From: Stenotrophomonas sp. WZN-1
GTDB lineage: Bacteria; Pseudomonadota; Gammaproteobacteria; Xanthomonadales; Xanthomonadaceae
Direction: 5' to 3'
Length of the DNA stretch: 64,000 nt
Assembly: GCF_002192255.1 (NCBI RefSeq)
Contig: NZ_CP021768.1
Location: forward strand, 1,196,001 to 1,260,000
In this document: one piece after another, positions 7,039-15,049 of the stretch
Layout: each line of letters opens with the position of its first letter
Position numbering within the stretch: position 1 is the first letter of the stretch
Translations under genes and position numbers: made by a program
Notes under the pieces: model-generated
The model's input: only the letters and a program-made list of their open reading frames with translations
What the model was told of the DNA's origin: nothing
The model's database searches: none

Positions 7039-7079
7039 GGGGTCAGATCCCTTTGCCCTGGGGAAAGGGATCTGACCCC
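7039..7079. repeat. GGGGTCAGATCCC hairpin element, copy 1
   Basis: Exact dyad with 16-bp arms: GGGGTCAGATCCCTTT, a 9-base loop, then AAAGGGATCTGACCCC. It sits between the phosphoesterase gene and the next gene on the same strand. The same sequence recurs at 7519 and 45878. Confidence 0.85.
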
Positions 7080-7099: not shown

Positions 7100-7504
7100 A
7101 TGGCCCATCCCTGCGCACCGATGGAACGCCTGATCCGCGCCAATGCCGATGAGATCAACCGGCTCAGCCAGGTGATCCGCGATACCGCGGGTACACGCTG
7201 GCGTGGGCCGGAGGAGCGGGAGCGGCACGCTGCGGCCTGTGCAGAATTCCGCCAGAACTACGAGCGTCTGGCGTTTCCGGGCGGCTATGCCAACGCGTTG
7301 AATCGGCTGGCCGAACACGATCCGAATACGCTGGATGTCGCGCTGACCTTCCTTGAAGTGCGGCCGTATTTCTTCCGGTCCGGATACATGTGGAAGACGT
7401 TGCTGAAGCGCGTGCAACGGGTAGCCATGGGGACGAAGCAACACGCGCGGCTGCAGAAGATCCTCGATGCGTATGCTGCCTATCGCGCCACACGCAACGG
7501 CTGA
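7100..7504 (+). CDS. Conserved hypothetical protein, alpha-helical
   Basis: A 134-residue, arginine- and alanine-rich soluble protein (MAHPCAPMERLIRANADEIN...) predicted to be mainly helical. No signal peptide, membrane segment or catalytic motif is visible. The stretch SGYMWKTLLKRVQRVAMGTKQHARLQKILDAY near the C-terminus is strongly basic. The gene is flanked on both sides by copies of the GGGGTCAGATCCC hairpin. The ATG at 7100 is preceded by GGAAAGA. Its codon pattern fits the neighbourhood, so I think it is real, but I do not recognise the family. Confidence 0.65.
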   Translation: MAHPCAPMERLIRANADEINRLSQVIRDTAGTRWRGPEERERHAAACAEFRQNYERLAFPGGYANALNRLAEHDPNTLDVALTFLEVRPYFFRSGYMWKTLLKRVQRVAMGTKQHARLQKILDAYAAYRATRNG

Positions 7505-7518
7505 TGGGGCGGCATGAC

Positions 7519-7559
7519 GGGGTCAGGTCCCTGCGCCTTTGGCAAAGGGATCTGACCCC
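7519..7559. repeat. GGGGTCAGATCCC hairpin element, copy 2
   Basis: Imperfect dyad: GGGGTCAGGTCCCT on the left and AAAGGGATCTGACCCC on the right, lying between two convergent genes. Left-arm substitutions suggest an older or drifting copy of the element at 7039. Confidence 0.8.
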
Positions 7560-7565
7560 GGCCCG

Positions 7566-8204
7566 TCAGGCCGCCCGCAGCGGCGGCCGCGCATGCGCAC
7601 TTCGACGCAGCACTTGCGCCCGCTTGGCGATCCAGCGCACCACGAAGGCGGTGAACAGCAGCGCCGACGGCACCGCATACCAGAAGTTGCCTGGCACGCG
7701 CTTGAAGTACGAGTAGGTGAACACCGCCGCGATGATCCACATGCCGGTCAGGTGCAGGCGACGCCAGGCCGTGGGTCCCATGCGGCGGGCGATTCCCCGG
7801 TGCGAGGTGATGGCCAGCGCCAGGATGGCGAGGTAGCCCACCGTGCCCGGGAGGTTGGCCAGCGCTGAGCGTGCTGGCCAGAACGCCGGGTTGAGGATGC
7901 CGAAACTGGTGATGGCGATTGCGTGCAGCAGGTGCGAGAACGCGAAGGACAGGCCGATGATGCGCCGCTCGCGCAGCAGGAATCGAGTGAACGGGCCGGG
8001 CAGCAGGGTGGCGAAGGAGGATGCCGTGAATGCCGCCAGGAACAGCAGGAACGATGTGCGGGCGGTGAGCCGGATCGCCGCGCGGCTGCCTTCGGCTGCA
8101 TCGGGATACAGGGCGAAGGCGGTCAGTGCGAACGCGATCAGGACCACGCCGATGGCTACGAACAGGCGCCAGCCGTGCAGCAGGGGGGGATTGGAAAGGG
8201 CCAT
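7566..8204 (-). CDS. Ferric reductase-like transmembrane protein
   Basis: A 212-residue protein with about six membrane helices. Histidines that could bind haem lie in helices at AFSHLLHAIAIT and TAWRRLHLTGMW, as in the ferric-reductase-like/MsrQ (YedZ) fold. Family members pass electrons through haem b across the inner membrane. I start at the ATG at 8204 (MALSNPPLLHGWRLF), with CGAGG upstream. It is last in the MNIO cluster direction but is separated from hvfC by 83 bases holding two palindromes, so it may or may not share the transcript. A redox partner for that cluster is inference. Confidence 0.78.
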   Translation of the reverse strand: MALSNPPLLHGWRLFVAIGVVLIAFALTAFALYPDAAEGSRAAIRLTARTSFLLFLAAFTASSFATLLPGPFTRFLLRERRIIGLSFAFSHLLHAIAITSFGILNPAFWPARSALANLPGTVGYLAILALAITSHRGIARRMGPTAWRRLHLTGMWIIAAVFTYSYFKRVPGNFWYAVPSALLFTAFVVRWIAKRAQVLRRSAHARPPLRAA

Positions 8205-8229
8205 GATCAAACCTCGAAGTAGGGGATGG

Positions 8230-8284
8230 GTAGTGCCGGCCGCTGGCCGGCCAATGAAGGGGTAGTGCCGGCCGCTGGCCGGCA
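8230..8284. repeat. Tandem GTAGTGCCGGCC palindromes
   Basis: Two head-to-tail copies of GTAGTGCCGGCCGCTGGCCG(GC) separated by 10 bases. In most other places in this window the copies face each other; here they are direct. Confidence 0.8.
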
Positions 8285-8287
8285 CCT

Positions 8288-9022
8288 TCAACAGTCGTTC
8301 GGCACAACCAGCACGCCCGCCGCGCACAGCTCGCCCAGAACGGGCAGGCAGACCACGCGCAATGCGTCCGTTGCCACGCCATGTGTTTCGGACAGCACCT
8401 GAAGTGCCTCATCCACCGGCGCGCCGTCGTCACCGAAGACCGATAGCAGCGCGTAGGCCAGCGGTGACAGTTCCTCGGCCTGCAGGCTGAAATCGGCGAG
8501 GCGCTGGATCACCAGCAGCGTGGGCGCTGCGCTCGATACCGGTTCCAGCGCCTCGTCCACATGTACCGGCCATTGGTAGCCAAGCACCCGCACCAGCGGC
8601 GAGACCGCCAGCACATCACTGTCCACCGGAACGCGGTGCGGCGAACGCCCGGCGGCGCGCGCTTCAATGTGCAGCGACTGCTGCGTGCTCTCGTAGTGCG
8701 CCAGTTCCGCTGCCCAGGCCGGTAGTGCCAGCGCGTCCTGCATCGCCAGCCAGGCCGCGAATTCGCCAGCGATCTGTGGGAACAACGGGGTGCGGCAGGT
8801 GTGGCTGGCGTAGTACTGCTCCACGGTGTCGCGCCAGCGCGGCATGCCCAACTGGTGCTGCAGGCGTGGCAGGGTGCCAGCCAGCAGGGTGTCCAGGCTG
8901 TCGATGCACAGGCGACGGTACACCGCCAGCCGGCGCGCCTCGACGCCATCGGGTGCGGGCATTGATGGGTCGCGCACATGGTCGGCCCAACGCCGTTGCA
9001 GGGTGGCCAGCGACTCAGCCAT
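8288..9022 (-). CDS. hvfC: HvfC/BufC family partner of MNIO maturase (DUF2063)
   Basis: A 244-residue protein. The N-terminal half ([20 protein letters not shown], then [27 protein letters not shown] and [17 protein letters not shown]) is the DUF2063 domain that accompanies DUF692 enzymes; the C-terminal half carries the less conserved part typical of HvfC/BufC. These partners are thought to bring the precursor peptide to the DUF692 enzyme. The ATG at 9022 overlaps the hvfB stop by 8 bases, so the two are coupled, and the long arginine-rich upstream frame is only the shadow of hvfB. Confidence 0.88.
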
Positions 9023-9872
9023 GGGCCACCTCGGGCCAATGTGCCTCGGCCTGTGCCTCGGCCTGTGCCTGGCGGATCTGCGCGACCTCAGCCAGCAACT
9101 CGGCCAGTGGCGGGAAGTTGAAGTCGCGTTCGAGCAGGGTGGGGCGCACGCCAACCCGCGCATAGGCCTCGCGCAACAGCGCCCAGACCACGCCTTTCAC
9201 CGGCGCACCGTGGGTATCGATCTTGAAGCCATCGTCTTCATCGAAGTGGCCCGCCACATGCAGCGAGGCGACCCGCCGGGCCGGCACGCGGGCCAGGAAT
9301 TCGAACGCGTCGTAGCCGTTGTTGCAGGCATTGACGAAGACGTTGTTGACGTCCAGCAGCAGGTCGCAGTCCGCCTCGGCGAGCACGGCATTGATGAAGT
9401 CGATCTCGCTCATCTCCGCACCGGCAACGGCGTAGTAGGAAATGTTCTCCACGGCGATGCGTCGGCCCAGCATGTCCTGCACCTGGGCGATGCGGCCGGC
9501 GACATGGTGAATGGCCTCGGCGGTGAACGGCAGAGGCAGCAGGTCGTAGACATGGCCGCCGGCGGCGCAGTAGCTCAGGTGTTCGCTGTAGAGCTGCACC
9601 TGATGCAGGTCGAGGAAGGCACGCGTCTGGGCCAGCAGGGTGCGGTCCAGCGGATCAGGACCGCCCAACGACAGCGACAGGCCATGGCAGGTCAGGGGGT
9701 GGCGTTCGCTCAACCTGCGCAGCGCTGCACCGTGTGCACCGCCGACGCCGATCCAGTTGTCGGGCGAAACTTCGAGGAAGTCGATGGCACCGGCCGGCAT
9801 GGCCAGCAGTTCGTCGATCAGGCCACGGCGCAGGCCAAGACCGGCGGCATTGGAAGGCAGGGGCAGGGTCAT
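9015..9872 (-). CDS. hvfB: DUF692 multinuclear non-haem iron oxygenase (HvfB/BufB type)
   Basis: A 285-residue TIM-barrel DUF692 protein. Metal-ligand regions are visible as [42 protein letters not shown] and [11 protein letters not shown]. Enzymes of this family (MbnB, HvfB, BufB) use two or three iron atoms and oxygen to turn peptide cysteines into oxazolone/thioamide or thiooxazole groups that bind metals. Its likely substrate is the Cys-rich product of the gene just upstream. The C-terminus has a short QAEAQAEA tract encoded by a 12-bp tandem repeat. The 54-base gap to hvfA suggests one operon. Confidence 0.92.
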
Positions 9873-9926
9873 GACGGATACTCCGGAGAGGGCGCCGCCT
9901 CGGAGGCGGCGCCGGTTGAACGTCGA

Positions 9927-10403
9927 TCAATCGGCAACGCGGGAGAACAGGCCCTTCGGCATCGGCTTGCCGTTGGCGGTGTAGACGCTGCGCAGGTAGT
10001 CGTGTGCTTCCTGCTCGCTGATGTAGCCGTCGTGGTCGGTGTCGATGCGGTCGAACTCGGCGGCACGCTTGGCGGCCACGGCGTTGAACTCGGCACGCGA
10101 GACCCGGCCATCGTGGTCGCGGTCGGTGCGGGCAAACGAGGCGTCGCCGCACTTGCCTTCGCCACACTGGCCCTCGGCCACCTTGGCCTTGCCGGCGGGC
10201 TTGCCGGTGGCGGTCTTGTTGGCCCCGCACTTGCCTTCGCCGCACTTGCCTTCGGCGGCAGCGCTCATGGCCACGGCACTGATCGCCAGCGGCTGGGTCG
10301 CCGCGGCCTGGCCGGCCAGCAGCAGGCCACCGGCCAGGGCGATGCCGATGGCACCGATGCGCGGCAGGCGGGAAGAGGGGGTGTTCTTGGTCGAGACGGA
10401 CAT
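9927..10403 (-). CDS. hvfA: HvfA-like RiPP precursor fused to two EF-hands
   Basis: A 158-residue exported protein. Residues 1-36 are a long signal peptide (hydrophobic core IGAIGIALAGGLLLAG). Two cysteine blocks follow, EGKCGEGKCG at 51-60 and EGQCGEGKCG at 77-86 (Cys54, 59, 80, 85), the motif modified by DUF692 enzymes. Residues 94-105 (DRDHDGRVSRAE) and 121-132 (DTDHDGYISEQE) are two canonical EF-hand loops. Known HvfA/bufferin precursors bind copper or other metals after modification; the added calcium-binding pair is unusual and may control folding or release. The ATG at 10403 has a strong AAGGAGT site. Modification is inferred, not seen. Confidence 0.88.
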   Translation of the reverse strand: MSVSTKNTPSSRLPRIGAIGIALAGGLLLAGQAAATQPLAISAVAMSAAAEGKCGEGKCGANKTATGKPAGKAKVAEGQCGEGKCGDASFARTDRDHDGRVSRAEFNAVAAKRAAEFDRIDTDHDGYISEQEAHDYLRSVYTANGKPMPKGLFSRVAD

Positions 10404-10503
10404 GGTGGTGACTCCTTGCGAAAGCACGCGGGGCGTGCGGGATGGACGCCGCTTGAAGGCGACGGAAACGAAGGGAAGAAGCGCGGTGAAGGGGCGGAGC
10501 GGA

Positions 10504-11148
10504 TCAGGCGTTGCGGCGACGGCGCAGTACGTGACCCACCAGCAGCACGCCGCCGAGCAGGGCGCCACCGAAGCCGATACCGGGCAACAGCGCGGCAACC
10601 GGCAGCAGCAGGGCGATCAGGCTGACACCCCAACCCAAGCCGTCATTGCCAACGGGGGCGTGCTGCGAGCCGGCCAGCAGCCGGTCGACGCTGAGTGCGC
10701 CACCGCCGTTGAGGATCAGTGGCAGCAGCATGGCCAGGAACAGCAGCGGCAGCTTGAAGTTGCCGTAGCCCTGGTCGGTGATTGCATAGCCCTGCCAGAG
10801 TTCGCCCAGGCCGTTCCATTGGTCGGGCCAGTGCACGGCGGCGATGGCGACCACGGTCAGCACCCAGAAGATGTAGGCCACCGAGCGCGTGGCCAGGCCG
10901 AGCAGCAGCATCACTGCACCCACCAGTTCCAGCCAGGTGGCCAGCTGCCAGTTCAGTGATGCGGGCAGGGTGGAGAACGGGAAGGGGAAGCGACCTTCCA
11001 GGTCGGCGAACCAGTTCTGGCCGCCCAGCTTCTCGCGGCCGGATTCAAAGAACTCCCAGGCCAGCAGGGTGCGCAGCGCCAATGGCGAGAGCCAGCGGCC
11101 GACAGCGTCCAGGCGGGGGGTGTACACGGAAGAGGCGGTGCTGATCAT
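10504..11148 (-). CDS. hvfX: DoxX-family membrane protein (HvfX type)
   Basis: A 214-residue DoxX-like inner-membrane protein with at least four helices. It shows [23 protein letters not shown] near the N-terminus and [20 protein letters not shown] in the second helix, both typical. DoxX proteins of the HvfX type are encoded with hvfA-hvfB-hvfC and are thought to help the modified, metal-binding peptide. Here the gene is first in the operon; hvfA follows after 100 bases. The C-terminus ends in a basic tail VLRRRRNA. The start at 11148 ([14 protein letters not shown]) fits family length. The promoter must lie in the 340-base divergent region upstream. Confidence 0.86.
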
Positions 11149-11262
11149 GGTGGTGTCCTGCGGGCCAGTGGTCGATGGAGTCCATTCCAGGCGGCGCAGG
11201 TATCGGCAACGTGTGCCGTTGCCCGGGGTTTTGTCAGCGACTGTGGCTGCGGCCGGGGTTCG

Positions 11263-11276
11263 TACAGTCAGATACA
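11263..11276 (+). promoter_or_regulatory. 14-bp motif, copy 1 (TACAGTCAGATACA)
   Basis: First of three copies of TACAGT-NN-GRTACA, lying 115 bases upstream of hvfX. On the other strand the motif reads TGTA-N6-TGTA, a direct repeat with one-turn spacing, the sort of site used by OmpR-type regulators. The binder is unknown. Confidence 0.5.
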
Positions 11277-11368
11277 AAGACGATGCGTTGATGCAATCGG
11301 GGCGATGCGCGCCCGCATGCGGGGAGCGATATCCACCCGGCAGCGCCCGGCCCGGCGCGGCGGCCGAA

Positions 11369-11382
11369 TGTATCCCACTGTA
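11369..11382 (-). promoter_or_regulatory. 14-bp motif, copy 2 (inverted)
   Basis: Plus-strand TGTATCCCACTGTA is the inverted form of the motif at 11263. It faces copy 3, whose first base lies 31 bases further on, close to three helical turns, so both could be bound on one face of the DNA. Confidence 0.5.
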
Positions 11383-11399
11383 GAAACCCGCCTGGGCCC

Positions 11400-11413
11400 T
11401 ACAGTCCGGTACA
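11400..11413 (+). promoter_or_regulatory. 14-bp motif, copy 3 (TACAGTCCGGTACA)
   Basis: Third copy, 76 bases before the alpha/beta hydrolase start at 11489, in the same orientation as copy 1. Copies 2 and 3 form an inverted pair near the hydrolase; copy 1 is nearer hvfX. Confidence 0.5.
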
Positions 11414-11488
11414 ACTCCGCGCCGCGGAGAAACAGCGCCGATACACCGGCAGGCGGAAATGGCCACTCCCAACACCGGACTGCCACCC

Positions 11489-12283
11489 ATGATCCGTACC
11501 TCGTTGCTCGCCGCCGCTCTCGCCCTTGCCGGCGCCGCCGCCCCGGCCTTCGCTGCCCAGGCCGATACCACTGCACCGCCCACCGTCATCCTGGTGCACG
11601 GCGCGTTCGCCGATGGCTCCAGCTGGAGCAAGGTCATCAGCACGCTGCATGACTGGAAGCTGCCCGCGGTGGCCGTGCAGAATCCGCTCACCTCGTTGGC
11701 CGACGACGTCGCCGCCACCCGCCGCGCAATTGCCGCTGCGCCCGGCAAGGTGGTGCTGGTCGGCCACAGCTGGGGTGGCACGGTCATCACCGAAGCCGGC
11801 AATGACCCGAAGGTGCAGGCGCTGGTGTACGTGGCGGCCTTCGCACCGGATGCAGGCCAATCTTCGGCGCAGCAGGGCGAAGGTTTCCCGGTCGGTCCGG
11901 GCCTGGCCCGACTGCAGGAGAAGGATGGCTACCTGACCTTGCCGGCCGATGCCATTGCCCAGGACTTCGCGCCGGACGTGATGAAGAAGTCGGCTGCACT
12001 GCTGTACAGCACGCAGGTCCCGTTGAAGGCCAGCGCGCTGGGCGAGGTGGTGAACGTTGCGGCGTGGCGCAGCAAGCCGAGCTGGTACGTGCTCAGCCGC
12101 GATGACCGCATGCTGTCGCCGCAGCTGCAGGCCGCGACCGCACGTCGCATCGGTGCACAGCTGCAATCGATCGGCAGCAGCCATGTGTCGCTGCTTTCGC
12201 ATCCGGCGCAGGTGGCCGACAGCATCCTGGAAGCGGCAGGGGTGAAGCCGGCGGAACTGCCGCTGGCCGAGCAGGGGGGCTGA
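11489..12283 (+). CDS. Exported alpha/beta hydrolase
   Basis: A 264-residue protein with a signal peptide ([22 protein letters not shown]) and an alpha/beta-hydrolase fold: [14 protein letters not shown] forms the oxyanion-hole strand, [12 protein letters not shown] carries the nucleophilic Ser, SRDDRMLSP the likely Asp, and [10 protein letters not shown] the catalytic His. The sequence resembles small EstC/salicylate-esterase-like hydrolases. The substrate is unknown; location is periplasmic or secreted. It is divergent from hvfX and followed after 3 bases by the thioredoxin-like gene, so those two form an operon. Confidence 0.85.
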
Positions 12284-12286
12284 GCG

Positions 12287-12832
12287 ATGGCCGCACTGCG
12301 AGGGTATGCACTGCCGCTGTTGCTGGGGCTGCTGGGCGGAGCGGCGTTGTTGCTGGCATGGCCCGGCGCCGATGCCGGCGCGCAGCCGCTCGATGCCGCA
12401 CCGATGGCGGGGTTCGACGGTGGCGGGCCCTGGCACAACAGCTCCCCGCTCACACTGAAGCAGTTGCGGGGGCAGGTGGTGCTGGTCGAGTTCTGGACCT
12501 ACACCTGCAGCAACTGCCTCAACGTGGCGCCGTATGTCCACCAGTGGCACGCACGGTACGCGTCGCAGGGCCTGAAGGTGATCGGCGTGCATACGCCGGA
12601 GTTCGCCTATGAAGGGCTGCCCCGCAACGTGCGCAGGGCCATCGCACGGTTGGACATCACCTGGCCGGTGGTGCAGGACAACCAGTACCGGATCTGGAAC
12701 GCCTGGGACAACCGTTTCTGGCCCGCGCTGTACCTGCTCGACCGGCAGGGGCGGGTGGTCTACCGCCATTACGGCGAGGGCGACTACGCACGTACCGAAA
12801 GCGAGATCCAGCGCCTGCTGGCCACCCCCTGA
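12287..12832 (+). CDS. Membrane-anchored TlpA-like thioredoxin
   Basis: A 181-residue protein with an N-terminal membrane anchor (residues 5-27) and a thioredoxin fold of the TlpA/ResA and DipZ-C-terminal kind. The active site is FWTYTCSNCLNVAPYV, a CxxC pair facing the periplasm, and the cis-proline region reads NRFWPALYLLD. Such proteins reduce or oxidise disulfides or haem-binding cysteines. It begins 3 bases after the exported hydrolase. Being divergent from the Cys-rich hvf cluster, it could keep that peptide's thiols reduced, which is inference. Confidence 0.87.
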   Translation: MAALRGYALPLLLGLLGGAALLLAWPGADAGAQPLDAAPMAGFDGGGPWHNSSPLTLKQLRGQVVLVEFWTYTCSNCLNVAPYVHQWHARYASQGLKVIGVHTPEFAYEGLPRNVRRAIARLDITWPVVQDNQYRIWNAWDNRFWPALYLLDRQGRVVYRHYGEGDYARTESEIQRLLATP

Positions 12833-12890
12833 GCCGCGCTACCATGGCTACGCCGCGCGGCGCTGTCCCCCTGCCTTCATCGAGAACGCA

Positions 12891-13631
12891 ATGAACCCTG
12901 TACCGCACATCCTGGTCGTCGACGATGACAGCGAGATCCGCCAGATGCTGGCCGACTACCTGCAACGCAACGGCCTGCGCGTGAGCCAGGCCGACGGTGG
13001 CCGGGCCATGCGCGCACTGATGGATACCCATGCAGTGGACCTGGTGGTGCTGGACGTGATGATGCCGGGCGAGGACGGCCTGAGCCTGTGCCGCAACCTG
13101 CGTGCCGGCAAGCATCGGGCGGTGCCGGTGGTGCTGCTGACCGCACGCGACGACGAGACCGACCGCATCATCGGCCTGGAAATGGGCGCCGACGACTACG
13201 TGACCAAGCCCTTTTCCTCGCGCGAACTGCTGGCACGCATCAACGCGGTGATTCGTCGCACCCGGATGCTGCCGCCGAACCTGCAGGTGAGCGAAGCCGG
13301 TCGCCAGCTGGCCTTCGGTGCCTGGCGCCTGGATACCACCGCGCGCCATCTGCTGGATGCGCAGGACACTGCGTATCCGCTCAGTGGCGCCGAGTTCCGC
13401 CTGCTTCGCGTGTTCCTCGATCACGCCAATCGGGTGCTCAGCCGCGACCAGCTGCTCAGCCTCACGCAGGGCCGCGATGCCGAACTGTTCGACCGCTCGA
13501 TCGACCTGCTGGTCAGTCGCGTGCGCCAACGGCTGGGGGACGACGCACGCGAGCCGACCTACATCAAGACCGTGCGCAGCGAAGGCTATGTGTTCAGCGT
13601 GCCGGTGCAGTTGCTGGGGCCGGACGAATGA
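12891..13631 (+). CDS. OmpR-family response regulator
   Basis: A 246-residue two-component regulator. The receiver domain (1-120) has the acidic pair in ILVVDDDSEIR, the phosphorylated Asp55 in LVVLDVMMPGEDG and the Lys in DDYVTKPFSSREL. The C-terminal winged helix (about 145-240) has DRSIDLLVSRVRQRLGDD and YIKTVRSEGYVF, typical of OmpR/PhoB DNA-binding domains. The start at 12891 gives the usual length. The gene overlaps the next gene by 4 bases (ATGA). The TGTA-N6-TGTA repeats at 11.3-11.4 kb are possible targets (inference). Confidence 0.93.
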   Translation: MNPVPHILVVDDDSEIRQMLADYLQRNGLRVSQADGGRAMRALMDTHAVDLVVLDVMMPGEDGLSLCRNLRAGKHRAVPVVLLTARDDETDRIIGLEMGADDYVTKPFSSRELLARINAVIRRTRMLPPNLQVSEAGRQLAFGAWRLDTTARHLLDAQDTAYPLSGAEFRLLRVFLDHANRVLSRDQLLSLTQGRDAELFDRSIDLLVSRVRQRLGDDAREPTYIKTVRSEGYVFSVPVQLLGPDE

Positions 13632-14941
13632 ACACCGGCGCACGCCGTCCACGCTGGCCGCGCACGCTGTCGGCGCGGCTGCTGCTGGTGCTGCTGGGCG
13701 GGCTGGCGCTGGCCCACGCGCTGTCTTTCGGCCTGCTGTTCTTCGAACGCTACCAGTCCACCCGCAGCATGATGCTGCGCAACCTCGATGAAGACGTGGC
13801 CGTGAGTGTCGCGCTGCTGGAGCACCTGCCCGCGGACCAGCGCGATGCGTGGGTGCCGCGGCTGGAGCGGCGCACCTACCGTTACCTGCTGCGCCCGGCT
13901 GCGGCCGGGCCGGGGCTGCAGACTGATCGTGCACGCCAGGTCACCGCGATCATCGACGACAGCCTGCAGCATCGCTATCCGTTGCAGGCGCGCCAGGTAG
14001 CTCGCCTGCCGGAGCGGTTCGAGGTGGAACTGCACCTGCATGACGGCACACCGTTGACCATTGAAGTCACTCCGTCGGGCCTGCCGCTGGCGCGCTGGCT
14101 GCCCGCCGTGCTGCTGGTGCAGCTGGCGTTGCTGCTGGTGTGCGCGTGGCTGGCGGTGCGCCTGGCCATGCGCCCGCTGCAGCAGCTGTCGCAGGCGGTG
14201 GAACAGCTGCAGCCGGGCAAGGACGGGCCGGCACTGCCTGAAGATGGTCCTGCGGAAGTAGGCGGTGCGGCGGCCGCACTCAATGCACTGCAGGCACGCA
14301 TTCGTGGCCATGTCAGTGAGCGCCTGCAGATCCTCGCAGCGATCTCGCACGATCTGCAGACCCCCATCACGCGCATGAAGCTTCGGGTGGAGAGCCTGCC
14401 TGAAGACAGCACCCAGCAGCGACTGCTGGCCGACCTCGACCACCTTGGGCAACTGGTGCGCGAAGGCGTGGCCTATGCGCGCAGCAGCCACGTCGCCAGT
14501 GGCGCGCCGGTGTCGATGGACTTGGGTGCGTTCCTGGCCAGCGTGGTCGGCGACTACGAGGACATGGGCAAGCCGGTCAGTGGTGGTGCGCCCGCTGGAC
14601 TGGTCGTGCAGACCTGGCCGCAGCCGCTGCGCCGGGTGGTCGGCAATCTGGTCGACAACGCGTTGCGCTACGCCGGTGCCGCCGAGATCGAGGCGGGCCG
14701 CGATGAGGCCGGAAGGGTGTGGATCGGAATTTCCGACCGTGGCCCCGGCATTCCCGAGGGCCAGCTGCAGGCAGTGCTGGCGCCGTTCCATCGGCTGGAG
14801 AGCTCGCGCAACCGCGATACCGGCGGCACCGGCCTGGGCCTGGCCATCGCGGTGCAGCTGGTGCAGTCGCTGGGCGGCTCACTGCGGCTGCACAACCGCG
14901 AGGGCGGCGGTTTGCGGGCGGAGCTGCAGCTGCCGGGGTAA
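13628..14941 (+). CDS. EnvZ-like sensor histidine kinase
   Basis: A 437-residue kinase. Membrane helices at about 17-38 and 154-177 bracket a periplasmic domain of about 115 residues; a HAMP region follows (RPLQQLSQAVEQL). The H-box is AAISHDLQTPITRMKLR (His near 240), the N-box is VVGNLVDNALRYAG, and the G boxes are ISDRGPGIPEG and DTGGTGLGLAI. It is the partner of the OmpR-type regulator, with which it overlaps. The periplasmic sensor has no recognised ligand motif. The location beside the hydrolase, thioredoxin and hvf genes suggests an envelope or metal-stress signal; that is a guess. Confidence 0.92.
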   Translation: MNTGARRPRWPRTLSARLLLVLLGGLALAHALSFGLLFFERYQSTRSMMLRNLDEDVAVSVALLEHLPADQRDAWVPRLERRTYRYLLRPAAAGPGLQTDRARQVTAIIDDSLQHRYPLQARQVARLPERFEVELHLHDGTPLTIEVTPSGLPLARWLPAVLLVQLALLLVCAWLAVRLAMRPLQQLSQAVEQLQPGKDGPALPEDGPAEVGGAAAALNALQARIRGHVSERLQILAAISHDLQTPITRMKLRVESLPEDSTQQRLLADLDHLGQLVREGVAYARSSHVASGAPVSMDLGAFLASVVGDYEDMGKPVSGGAPAGLVVQTWPQPLRRVVGNLVDNALRYAGAAEIEAGRDEAGRVWIGISDRGPGIPEGQLQAVLAPFHRLESSRNRDTGGTGLGLAIAVQLVQSLGGSLRLHNREGGGLRAELQLPG

Positions 14942-14957
14942 CGGGCGCGGTCAGAGC

Positions 14958-14976
14958 ATCCACGCATGGCGTGGAT
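14958..14976. repeat. Short palindrome ATCCACGC-ATG-GCGTGGAT
   Basis: Perfect 8-bp arms around ATG, just after the kinase gene. A degenerate relative occurs at 38830-38847; both are followed or preceded by GTAG/CTAC, as in the other palindromes of the window. Confidence 0.7.
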
Positions 14977-15049
14977 CTACAGCATTCCTGCACCGCCCGG
15001 GAATCGGCGATCATCTGCAGCGAGTGTTGAAACCAGGGAGCACCACGCA

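Follow-up and report, generated by a model that had tools for sequence, protein, structure and literature searches.

A probable counterpart of EfhP in Stenotrophomonas: an EGKCG/EF-hand precursor encoded in a cassette with its own BfmRS-type genes

What kind of protein carries EGKCG cysteine blocks and a pair of EF-hands in one chain, and what might calcium do for such cysteines? We addressed this question for a minus-strand gene of Stenotrophomonas sp. WZN-1 located at positions 9927–10403 of the window, that is, of the whole 64 kb stretch of DNA analyzed. The translation, the Pfam and NCBIfam models, and the homologue alignment assign its 158-residue product as an EfhP-type chimaeric precursor consisting of a putative signal peptide, two Cys blocks, and two EF-hands. 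An AAGGAG ribosome site lies ahead of the ATG. The N-terminus, judged by eye, contains R12/R15, a hydrophobic stretch at residues 16–31, and A33-A-A35 as a putative cleavage site; residues 1–35 (10299–10403) thus resemble a Sec-like signal peptide with predicted cleavage after A35, and the chimaera is probably secreted. On the same strand follow Cys block 1, EGKCGEGKCG (residues 51–60, 10224–10253; Cys54 and Cys59), Cys block 2, EGQCGEGKCG (residues 77–86, 10146–10175; Cys80 and Cys85), EF-hand loop 1, DRDHDGRVSRAE (residues 94–105, 10089–10124), EF-hand loop 2, DTDHDGYISEQE (residues 121–132, 10008–10043), and a tail motif NGKxxP (residues 144–149, 9957–9974). All four cysteines sit in E-G-x-C-G, and the third of these motifs has Gln at its position 3; Cys85 precedes loop 1 by 9 residues.

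Both halves of the protein were recognized by family models. The NCBIfam model NF050137 ('KCGExKCG_twice', described as HvfA family RiPP metallophore) scored 35.2 against a cut-off of 19.5, with its best stretch at residues 51–87. The Pfam models EF-hand_6 (37.9 bits, cut-off 25), EF-hand_5 (37.9, cut-off 25.9), and EF-hand_7 for the pair (38.3 bits, cut-off 30) all matched, and D1, D3, D5, G6, S9, and E12 are present in both loops, so that the canonical Ca2+ positions 1, 3, 5, 9, and 12 are filled. A chance EF-hand match or a chance reading frame is ruled out by the Pfam scores, the 1,126 homologous matches, and the conservation of the ligands. Several other assignments were rejected: with the HvfA equivalog model (NF050188) the chimaera reached 30.2 bits (cut-off 95) and with the XopAW effector model (NF041410) 31.3 (cut-off 120), and no match to DUF2282, the bufferin domain, was found with Pfam at E ≤ 1e-3. 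Lanmodulin, rejected as well, resembles the chimaera in a weak match to the EF region (NF053806, 20.4 against a cut-off of 135). To our knowledge, lanmodulin has no EGKCG block and HvfA has no EF-hands.

The downstream gene, separated from the chimaera gene by 54 bp, encodes an MNIO (DUF692) maturase of the HvfB family (9015–9872, minus strand) that matches PF05114 with 342.7 bits (cut-off 25), the HvfB-family model NF003818 with 410.4 (cut-off 360), and PDB entry 3bww with an E value of 3.1e-72. It is accompanied on the minus strand by genes for an HvfC-family partner (DUF2063/PME1; 8288–9022; NF050145, 187.4 against 142), a ferric-reductase-like transmembrane protein (7566–8204; PF01794, 34.1 against 28), and a DoxX protein of the HvfX family (10504–11148; NF050144, 133.6 against 80); the starts of these three were chosen here, and the scores come from scans with longer starts. 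The order of the minus-strand genes is DoxX, chimaera, MNIO, HvfC, and the ferric-reductase-like protein.

A second type of EGKCG precursor, with two C-terminal EF-hand_5 domains, was described in 2025, and EfhP was cited in the discussion as an example of Ca2+ signalling (PMC12452194). These Buf_EGKCG|EF-hand_5 chimaeras share with the WZN-1 protein a short EGKCG domain, two C-terminal EF-hands, and MNIO, DUF2063, and DoxX genes, the EGKCG motifs being scored here by NF050137 and not by the profile of that paper. A few of the published clusters also hold a ferric reductase, and the WZN-1 gene is not different in kind. The terms two-component, histidine kinase, and response regulator are absent from the text of PMC12452194. 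A sequence-only reading of this gene had described a product of 158 residues with a signal peptide, four cysteines in EG(K/Q)CGEGKCG blocks, two EF loops, and a DUF692 gene downstream; this description is accurate according to the sequence and the Pfam and NCBIfam models, the signal being judged by eye. Its view of an HvfA-type precursor joined to an EF-hand pair beside HvfB/HvfC also agrees with the family models; its view that the combination was undescribed has to be given up in the light of the 2025 paper and of a report from 2024 (PMC11559002). Its further suggestions, a modified-cysteine metal site and calcium control over folding, export, or metal release, may apply to this protein, and neither is reported in the literature accessible to us. 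The EGKCG/EF-hand fusion is already known, and what is new here is the cassette with its own two-component system, the regulatory boxes, the fixed Cys–EF spacing, and a sandwich form.

The 2024 report concerns EfhP (PA4107) of P. aeruginosa, in which four EGKCG repeats were noted and dual sensing of Ca2+ and Fe was proposed; its title states that EfhP controls the regulation of iron uptake by calcium. EfhP binds Ca2+ selectively (13.7 µM) with a Ca2+-dependent rise in hydrophobicity, and binding is lost when positions 1 and 12 are both changed; these biophysical data were obtained on protein made in E. coli (PMC9132961), and PA4106 is absent from the text of that paper. The genes efhP, PA4106 (DUF692), and PA4105 (DUF2063) were presented in 2014 as one predicted operon, and a table in the same paper lists iron-uptake proteins that were lower or missing in efhP mutants (PMC4053335). 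EfhP links calcium to iron uptake and to stress responses.

Following the proposal made for EfhP, the WZN-1 protein could be a dual Ca2+/iron sensor in which the EGKCG cysteines stay unmodified and serve to bind Fe or a cluster. The iron-uptake proteins affected in efhP mutants speak for this, as does the activation of siderophore genes by BfmRS under osmotic stress, reported in a paper from the available text of which copper is absent (PMC10924945). We nevertheless consider it improbable that the cysteines stay free; conversion of the cysteine motifs into metal-binding groups by the partner enzymes is very likely. In the genus, the chimaera was found at E ≤ 1e-20 in 27 of 91 genomes (own included), and in every one of the 27, as read from the coordinates, an MNIO match on the same strand starts 80–92 bp beyond the chimaera match. 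Two MNIOs are present in 26 of these genomes and one in the remaining genome, compared with one in 52 and none in 12 of the 64 genomes that lack the chimaera. EGKCG is also the motif modified in oxazolin and fontiphorin, where the repeats carry 5-thiooxazole (oxazolin having been revised from oxazolone-thioamide); FonBC needed two repeats, and among the variants reported for position 3, which do not include Gln, Ala, Arg, and Thr were tolerated and Phe and Glu were poor (PMC12668002). Oxazolin HvfA, fontiphorin, and the captophorins, all 5-thiooxazole metallophores, resemble the WZN-1 chimaera in their EGKCG motifs and HvfB/HvfC-type enzymes; unlike in our case, the EF-hand is absent from the text of PMC12668002. 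Finally, DUF692, PA4106, and RiPP do not occur in the text of PMC11559002, and the Ca2+/Fe proposal was therefore made without the maturase in view. The published literature accessible to us contained no report of a cysteine modification in an EF-hand member, or of a mass determined for a chimaera that had been co-produced with its MNIO.

To describe the conservation of the chimaera, the 1,126 of 1,810 candidates that matched at E ≤ 1e-3 were ranked, and the query was aligned with the best 120, a set of nearest homologues from which the sandwich forms differ. Where named, the listed proteins are called 'HvfA family RiPP metallophore' or 'EF-hand domain-containing protein', and they come from Stenotrophomonas, Lysobacter, Pseudomonas, Cupriavidus, and others. 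EF loops were counted with a relaxed pattern in which Gly was forced at position 6 and small residue sets were allowed at positions 1, 3, 5, 8, and 12. Two loops were found in 112 of the 121 proteins and one loop in nine; Asp1 and Glu12 are invariant in both loops of those 112, although the pattern permitted other residues there. The sequence-only reading had named conserved EF loops in homologues and EGKCG plus EF-hand proteins next to DUF692 genes as checks, and it is upheld on both points by this alignment and by the adjoining MNIO in the 27 chimaera genomes of the genus. In the family, 176 of 198 genomes match, a mixed tally of chimaeras, EF-hand-only, and repeat-only proteins and not a chimaera count; we used its loci alone.

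The distance from the last cysteine to the first matched EF loop is 9 residues in 119 of the 121 proteins. In the other two it is 36, i.e., the loop spacing of 27 plus 9, which is taken as loop 1 having been missed by the pattern. Since this step is fixed while the number of cysteines per protein ranges from 1 to 8, the last Cys block appears welded to the EF pair and the other blocks come and go. The AlphaFold2 model places the first EF helix at residues 87–93, directly after Cys85-Gly86. Block means of pLDDT are 69–85 for residues 91 to 150 and below 50 for residues 39–88, the Cys region is predicted to be unstructured (mean pLDDT 56.8), and confidence is low everywhere but in the EF pair. 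Such a fixed step suggests a possible influence of Ca2+ loading on the shape of the nearest thiooxazole site. Alternatively, the EF pair may simply give solubility or Ca2+ buffering, with calcium uncoupled from the modified cysteines. We regard this as a real possibility with a somewhat less than even chance of being correct. It agrees with the predicted disorder of the Cys part and with the existence of repeat-only precursors without EF-hands, in the WZN-1 genome itself (L002) and as HvfA in H. influenzae; against it stand the kept Ca2+ ligands and the constant step of 9 beside a varying number of cysteines. Such a carrier role is compatible with the explanation that we prefer, a modified metallophore joined to a calcium-binding domain, save for its folding-and-coupling step.

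A second architecture was seen among the wider homologues, in which the EF-hand pair has EGKCG cysteines on both sides (Cys blocks–EF pair–Cys blocks; the sandwich form). Cysteines lie before and after the EF loops in 36 of 110 loci (L003–L112, some genomes being represented twice), all 36 within L020–L032 and L083–L109. The last cysteine before loop 1 is 6 residues away in 26 of the 36 and 9 in seven. The sources are Luteimonas, Pseudoxanthomonas, Vulcaniibacterium, Thermomonas, Lysobacter, Tahibacter, and some Pseudomonas. The sandwich form was not found in the available text of PMC12452194, the section of which on EGKCG precursors describes only C-terminal EF-hands.

The EF pair could also serve maturation itself, docking in its apo form on HvfB/HvfC as a C-terminal recognition domain. 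The tail motif NGKxxP, which has no known role, is kept in 116 of the 121 proteins, and in the genus chimaera and MNIO occur together and, as three genomes indicate, leave together. These observations would fit a docking function, which we still rate as improbable: the precursor of fontiphorin becomes modified although it has no EF-hands, and it tolerates Ala variants before its core (PMC12668002), and the MNIOs of chimaeras and of repeat-only precursors form no clean separate clades. In the MNIO tree, built by a quick method that left 28 of 80 inner branches open, the precursor types required 11 changes against the least possible 3. Because the tree mixes the types, no claim is made about the number of origins of the fusion. 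Seven sandwich loci (L022, L027, L029, L085, L088, L090, and L092) and two loci with the MNIO 2–3 kb upstream (L059 and L076) were entered in this tree as C-terminal, and its group counts are off accordingly.

In 32 of 80 named loci (L040–L080 and L094, nearly all of them Pseudomonas records), the chimaera has no MNIO in the stretch examined; in three of these loci (L042, L052, and L068) the stretch breaks off within 250 bp of the match, and in L080 and L094 the relaxed pattern found no EF loop. All 24 genomes holding such orphan chimaeras (from 25 of the 32 loci) have an MNIO elsewhere, which is weak evidence alone because, of 149 genomes sampled from one Pseudomonas genus, 122 also contain an MNIO, several genomes being in both sets. 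The neighbourhoods of 13 single MNIOs contained an EGKCG reading frame in one case and a BfmR-type box at ≤1 mismatch in two. Twelve of these 13 MNIOs were entered in the tree, and they belong to an 18-row clade (SH-aLRT 99) together with six MNIOs whose chimaera is either directly linked downstream or no more than 3 kb away. This placement fits a possible action of the MNIO in trans on the orphan chimaeras.

The chimaera gene of WZN-1 belongs to an accessory cassette of 7.5 kb (7489–14980). For its delimitation, the left flank was run against 12 chimaera-less genomes and the three congeners with the strongest matches (L126, L127, and L128) were compared. In all three, the window sequence matches up to 7,482–7,488 and resumes from 14,980–14,995, with only 54–68 bp between; in these comparisons, the cassette is either there as a whole or missing as a whole. 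A right-flank search using the hydrolase gene gave weak matches only, because the hydrolase itself belongs to the cassette. Outside the left boundary, at 7039–7079, lies a palindromic 41 bp repeat with 20 bp arms; several congeneric genomes contain REP-like near-copies of it on either strand, at dozens of sites.

The plus strand of the cassette encodes an alpha/beta hydrolase with a signal-like N-terminus by eye (11459–12283; PF12697), a redoxin/thioredoxin-like protein with a hydrophobic N-terminus (12287–12832; PF08534, under the ResA cut-off), and, recognized by domain models, an OmpR-type, BfmR-like response regulator (12891–13631) and a BfmS/EnvZ-like sensor histidine kinase (13628–14941). 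Between the two gene sets, as defined by the gene starts and the sequence, lies a divergent control region of 310 bp (11149–11458). The BfmR motif of P. aeruginosa is TACAA-N3-GATACA; the top three BfmR ChIP peaks are the promoters of bfmR, pa4103, and pa4107, and efhP is the gene most activated by BfmR, printed as '11, 268-fold' (PMC8025907). A motif scan revealed two boxes with 1 mismatch, TACAGTCAGATACA (11263–11276, plus strand) and TACAGTGGGATACA (11369–11382, minus strand), and a weaker one with 2 mismatches (11400–11413, plus strand). The first two are the only boxes at ≤1 mismatch in the whole 64 kb, against a mean of 0.07 in shuffles, of which 0 of 100 reached two; at ≤3 mismatches, the window holds 32 boxes versus 31.5 by chance. 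An older, longer motif, GATACAnnGC (PMC4148453), from which the published pa4103 site departs too, is not fully matched by the boxes at 11263 or 11369. In the available literature we found no publication joining BfmR with MNIO, bufferin, oxazolin, DUF692, or EGKCG.

With two canonical Ca2+ loops, a BfmR-type box (short motif, 1 mismatch), and BfmRS-like genes nearby, the WZN-1 chimaera has the sequence features by which an EfhP-type protein was recognized here. The comparison was extended to a locus (L146) whose chimaera shares 95% identity with a protein named P. aeruginosa. In this locus the chimaera, MNIO, and HvfC genes are followed by DoxX, ferric reductase, kinase, and regulator genes on the other strand, an arrangement that fits the published PAO1 locus: PA4107-4106-4105, PA4103 and PA4104, and bfmRS (PA4101-4102), with a ferric-reductase domain in PA4103 (PMC4148453). 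The identity between the cassette and L146 is 72% for the regulator, 54% for the kinase, 54% for the ferric reductase, and 63% over 139 residues for the chimaera. L146 has a single box with 1 mismatch, close to the start of the ferric reductase gene, and three with 2 mismatches, of which two precede the chimaera and one the regulator. The EfhP locus of P. aeruginosa (bfmRS, PA4103/4104, efhP-PA4106-PA4105) and the WZN-1 locus are alike in the architecture of the precursor, the DUF692 and DUF2063 partners, and the BfmR-type boxes, and both have relatives of ferric reductase, DoxX, regulator, and kinase nearby. They differ in that in WZN-1 DoxX leads the operon, the regulator genes diverge from it, and all of this lies in an accessory cassette that also encodes a hydrolase and a redoxin. 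We conclude that the locus likely encodes the Stenotrophomonas counterpart of EfhP, a secreted RiPP metallophore with a calcium-binding domain that would be under BfmRS-type control and come from a self-regulated cassette.

The boxes were then counted in the 80 named loci, many of which are from related Pseudomonas and hence not independent. A box at ≤1 mismatch was present in 16 of 17 C-terminal chimaera loci linked to an MNIO (L081 being the one without), in both loci with the MNIO 2–3 kb upstream, and in 12 of 32 orphan loci, but in none of the 23 sandwich or 6 repeat-only loci. In the first grouping, L085, L088, L090, and L092 were counted as MNIO-linked, giving 16 of 21 against 0 of 19 sandwich loci; they were moved to the sandwich group after this count, given the cysteines behind their EF loops, which removed four of the five misses. 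The MNIO-linked group as first drawn (21 loci) had 23 box matches; 200 letter-shuffled motifs gave 0.9 on average and 4 at most. Among the 30 box-bearing loci, the box lies 90–232 bp before the chosen chimaera start in 23, 570–890 bp before it (upstream of DoxX) in four, only 3.3–3.6 kb behind the chimaera in two, and on the chosen start in L036.

Within stretches of ≤5 kb a side, relatives of the kinase or regulator were found in 9 of the 17 C-terminal loci linked to an MNIO, in one of the two loci whose MNIO lies 2–3 kb upstream, in 3 of the 23 sandwich loci, and in none of the 32 orphan or 6 repeat-only loci; loci were grouped by hand, and several matches lie at the edge. The other 8 of the 17 had neither kinase nor regulator within these stretches. 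A regulator at least 71% identical to that of the cassette occurs in 21 of 21 chimaera-bearing genomes, four of them with orphan chimaeras; as the sample was confined to chimaera-bearing genomes, this is not a test of linkage. Boxes stand beside chimaeras in Stenotrophomonas, Lysobacter, Steroidobacter, Rheinheimera, and Paucimonas records, suggesting that the BfmR circuit known from P. aeruginosa is wider. The boxes before orphan chimaera genes in Pseudomonas may tie some of these to the same circuit.

Gene order, domains, conservation, cassette boundaries, and boxes, all observed here, support the assignment as an EfhP counterpart; by analogy, so do the thiooxazoles on EGKCG peptides, the Ca2+ binding by EfhP, and the BfmR control of efhP. 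As a mechanism, we infer cysteine modification, Ca2+-dependent folding after export, a choice of metal, and a coupling of the two metal sites. The BfmRS-type two-component system of the cassette would switch on the divergent promoter, and the chimaera would be made in the cytoplasm, where HvfB/HvfC would turn Cys54/59/80/85 into 5-thiooxazoles. The low Ca2+ of the cytoplasm does not suffice to load EF-hands with micromolar affinity, which would keep the chain Sec-competent; an EF-hand affinity near 10 µM, as in EfhP, suggests folding after export. Once in the periplasm, the EF pair would take up Ca2+ and fold, and this would hold the last thiooxazole in place where the first EF helix begins. 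The Cys blocks would bind Cu(I) or another soft metal in the periplasm, with DoxX, the ferric-reductase-like protein, and the redoxin as probable redox helpers.

Several observations count against this scheme. The metal proposed for EfhP is iron and not copper, 32 of the 80 named loci have no MNIO in the stretch examined, 8 of the 17 MNIO-linked C-terminal loci lack both kinase and regulator within ≤5 kb a side, L081 has no box, the Cys region is predicted to be unstructured, the boxes before the chimaera and the regulator of L146 have 2 mismatches, and the longer BfmR motif is not fully matched. In addition, the Ca2+ response of EfhP was seen with apparently unmodified protein, and Ca2+ sensing therefore need not require modification. 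A broader reading, which we offer tentatively as having perhaps the lesser chance of being true, is that proteins of the EfhP family, which have so far been studied as plain periplasmic Ca2+ sensors, are thiooxazole-modified metallophores in the cell. After export, Ca2+ loading would order the first EF helix and the last thiooxazole and thereby set the affinity of the copper or iron site, a BfmRS-type system would make both halves, the calcium control of iron uptake in Pseudomonas would be read out via the modified site, and the sandwich form would be a second solution to the same coupling. If EfhP-type proteins are indeed MNIO-modified, the binding studies on E. coli-made protein lacked part of the molecule. 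One compact cassette holds the precursor, maturase, partner, redox helpers, and regulator, which makes the EfhP mechanism directly testable.

The WZN-1 genome has a second hvf cluster at about 1.504 Mb, encoding a repeat-only EGKCG precursor of 119 aa (L002 2333–2692, minus strand) and its own MNIO, 64% identical to that of the cassette, with DUF2063-like and DoxX-like frames beside them by eye. No BfmR-type box at ≤2 mismatches was found in 3.8 kb of this cluster. A repeat-only hvf cluster was also found in a record titled Bacillus subtilis SK7B5 (L112); its MNIO pairs in the tree with the second MNIO of the WZN-1 genome, and the cluster is probably a contamination of that record. A 12 Mb contig named Cystobacter fuscus (P0016) carries a chimaera 65% identical in the alignment to that of the window, which would reflect either a transfer or a mixed assembly in this myxobacterium-named record.
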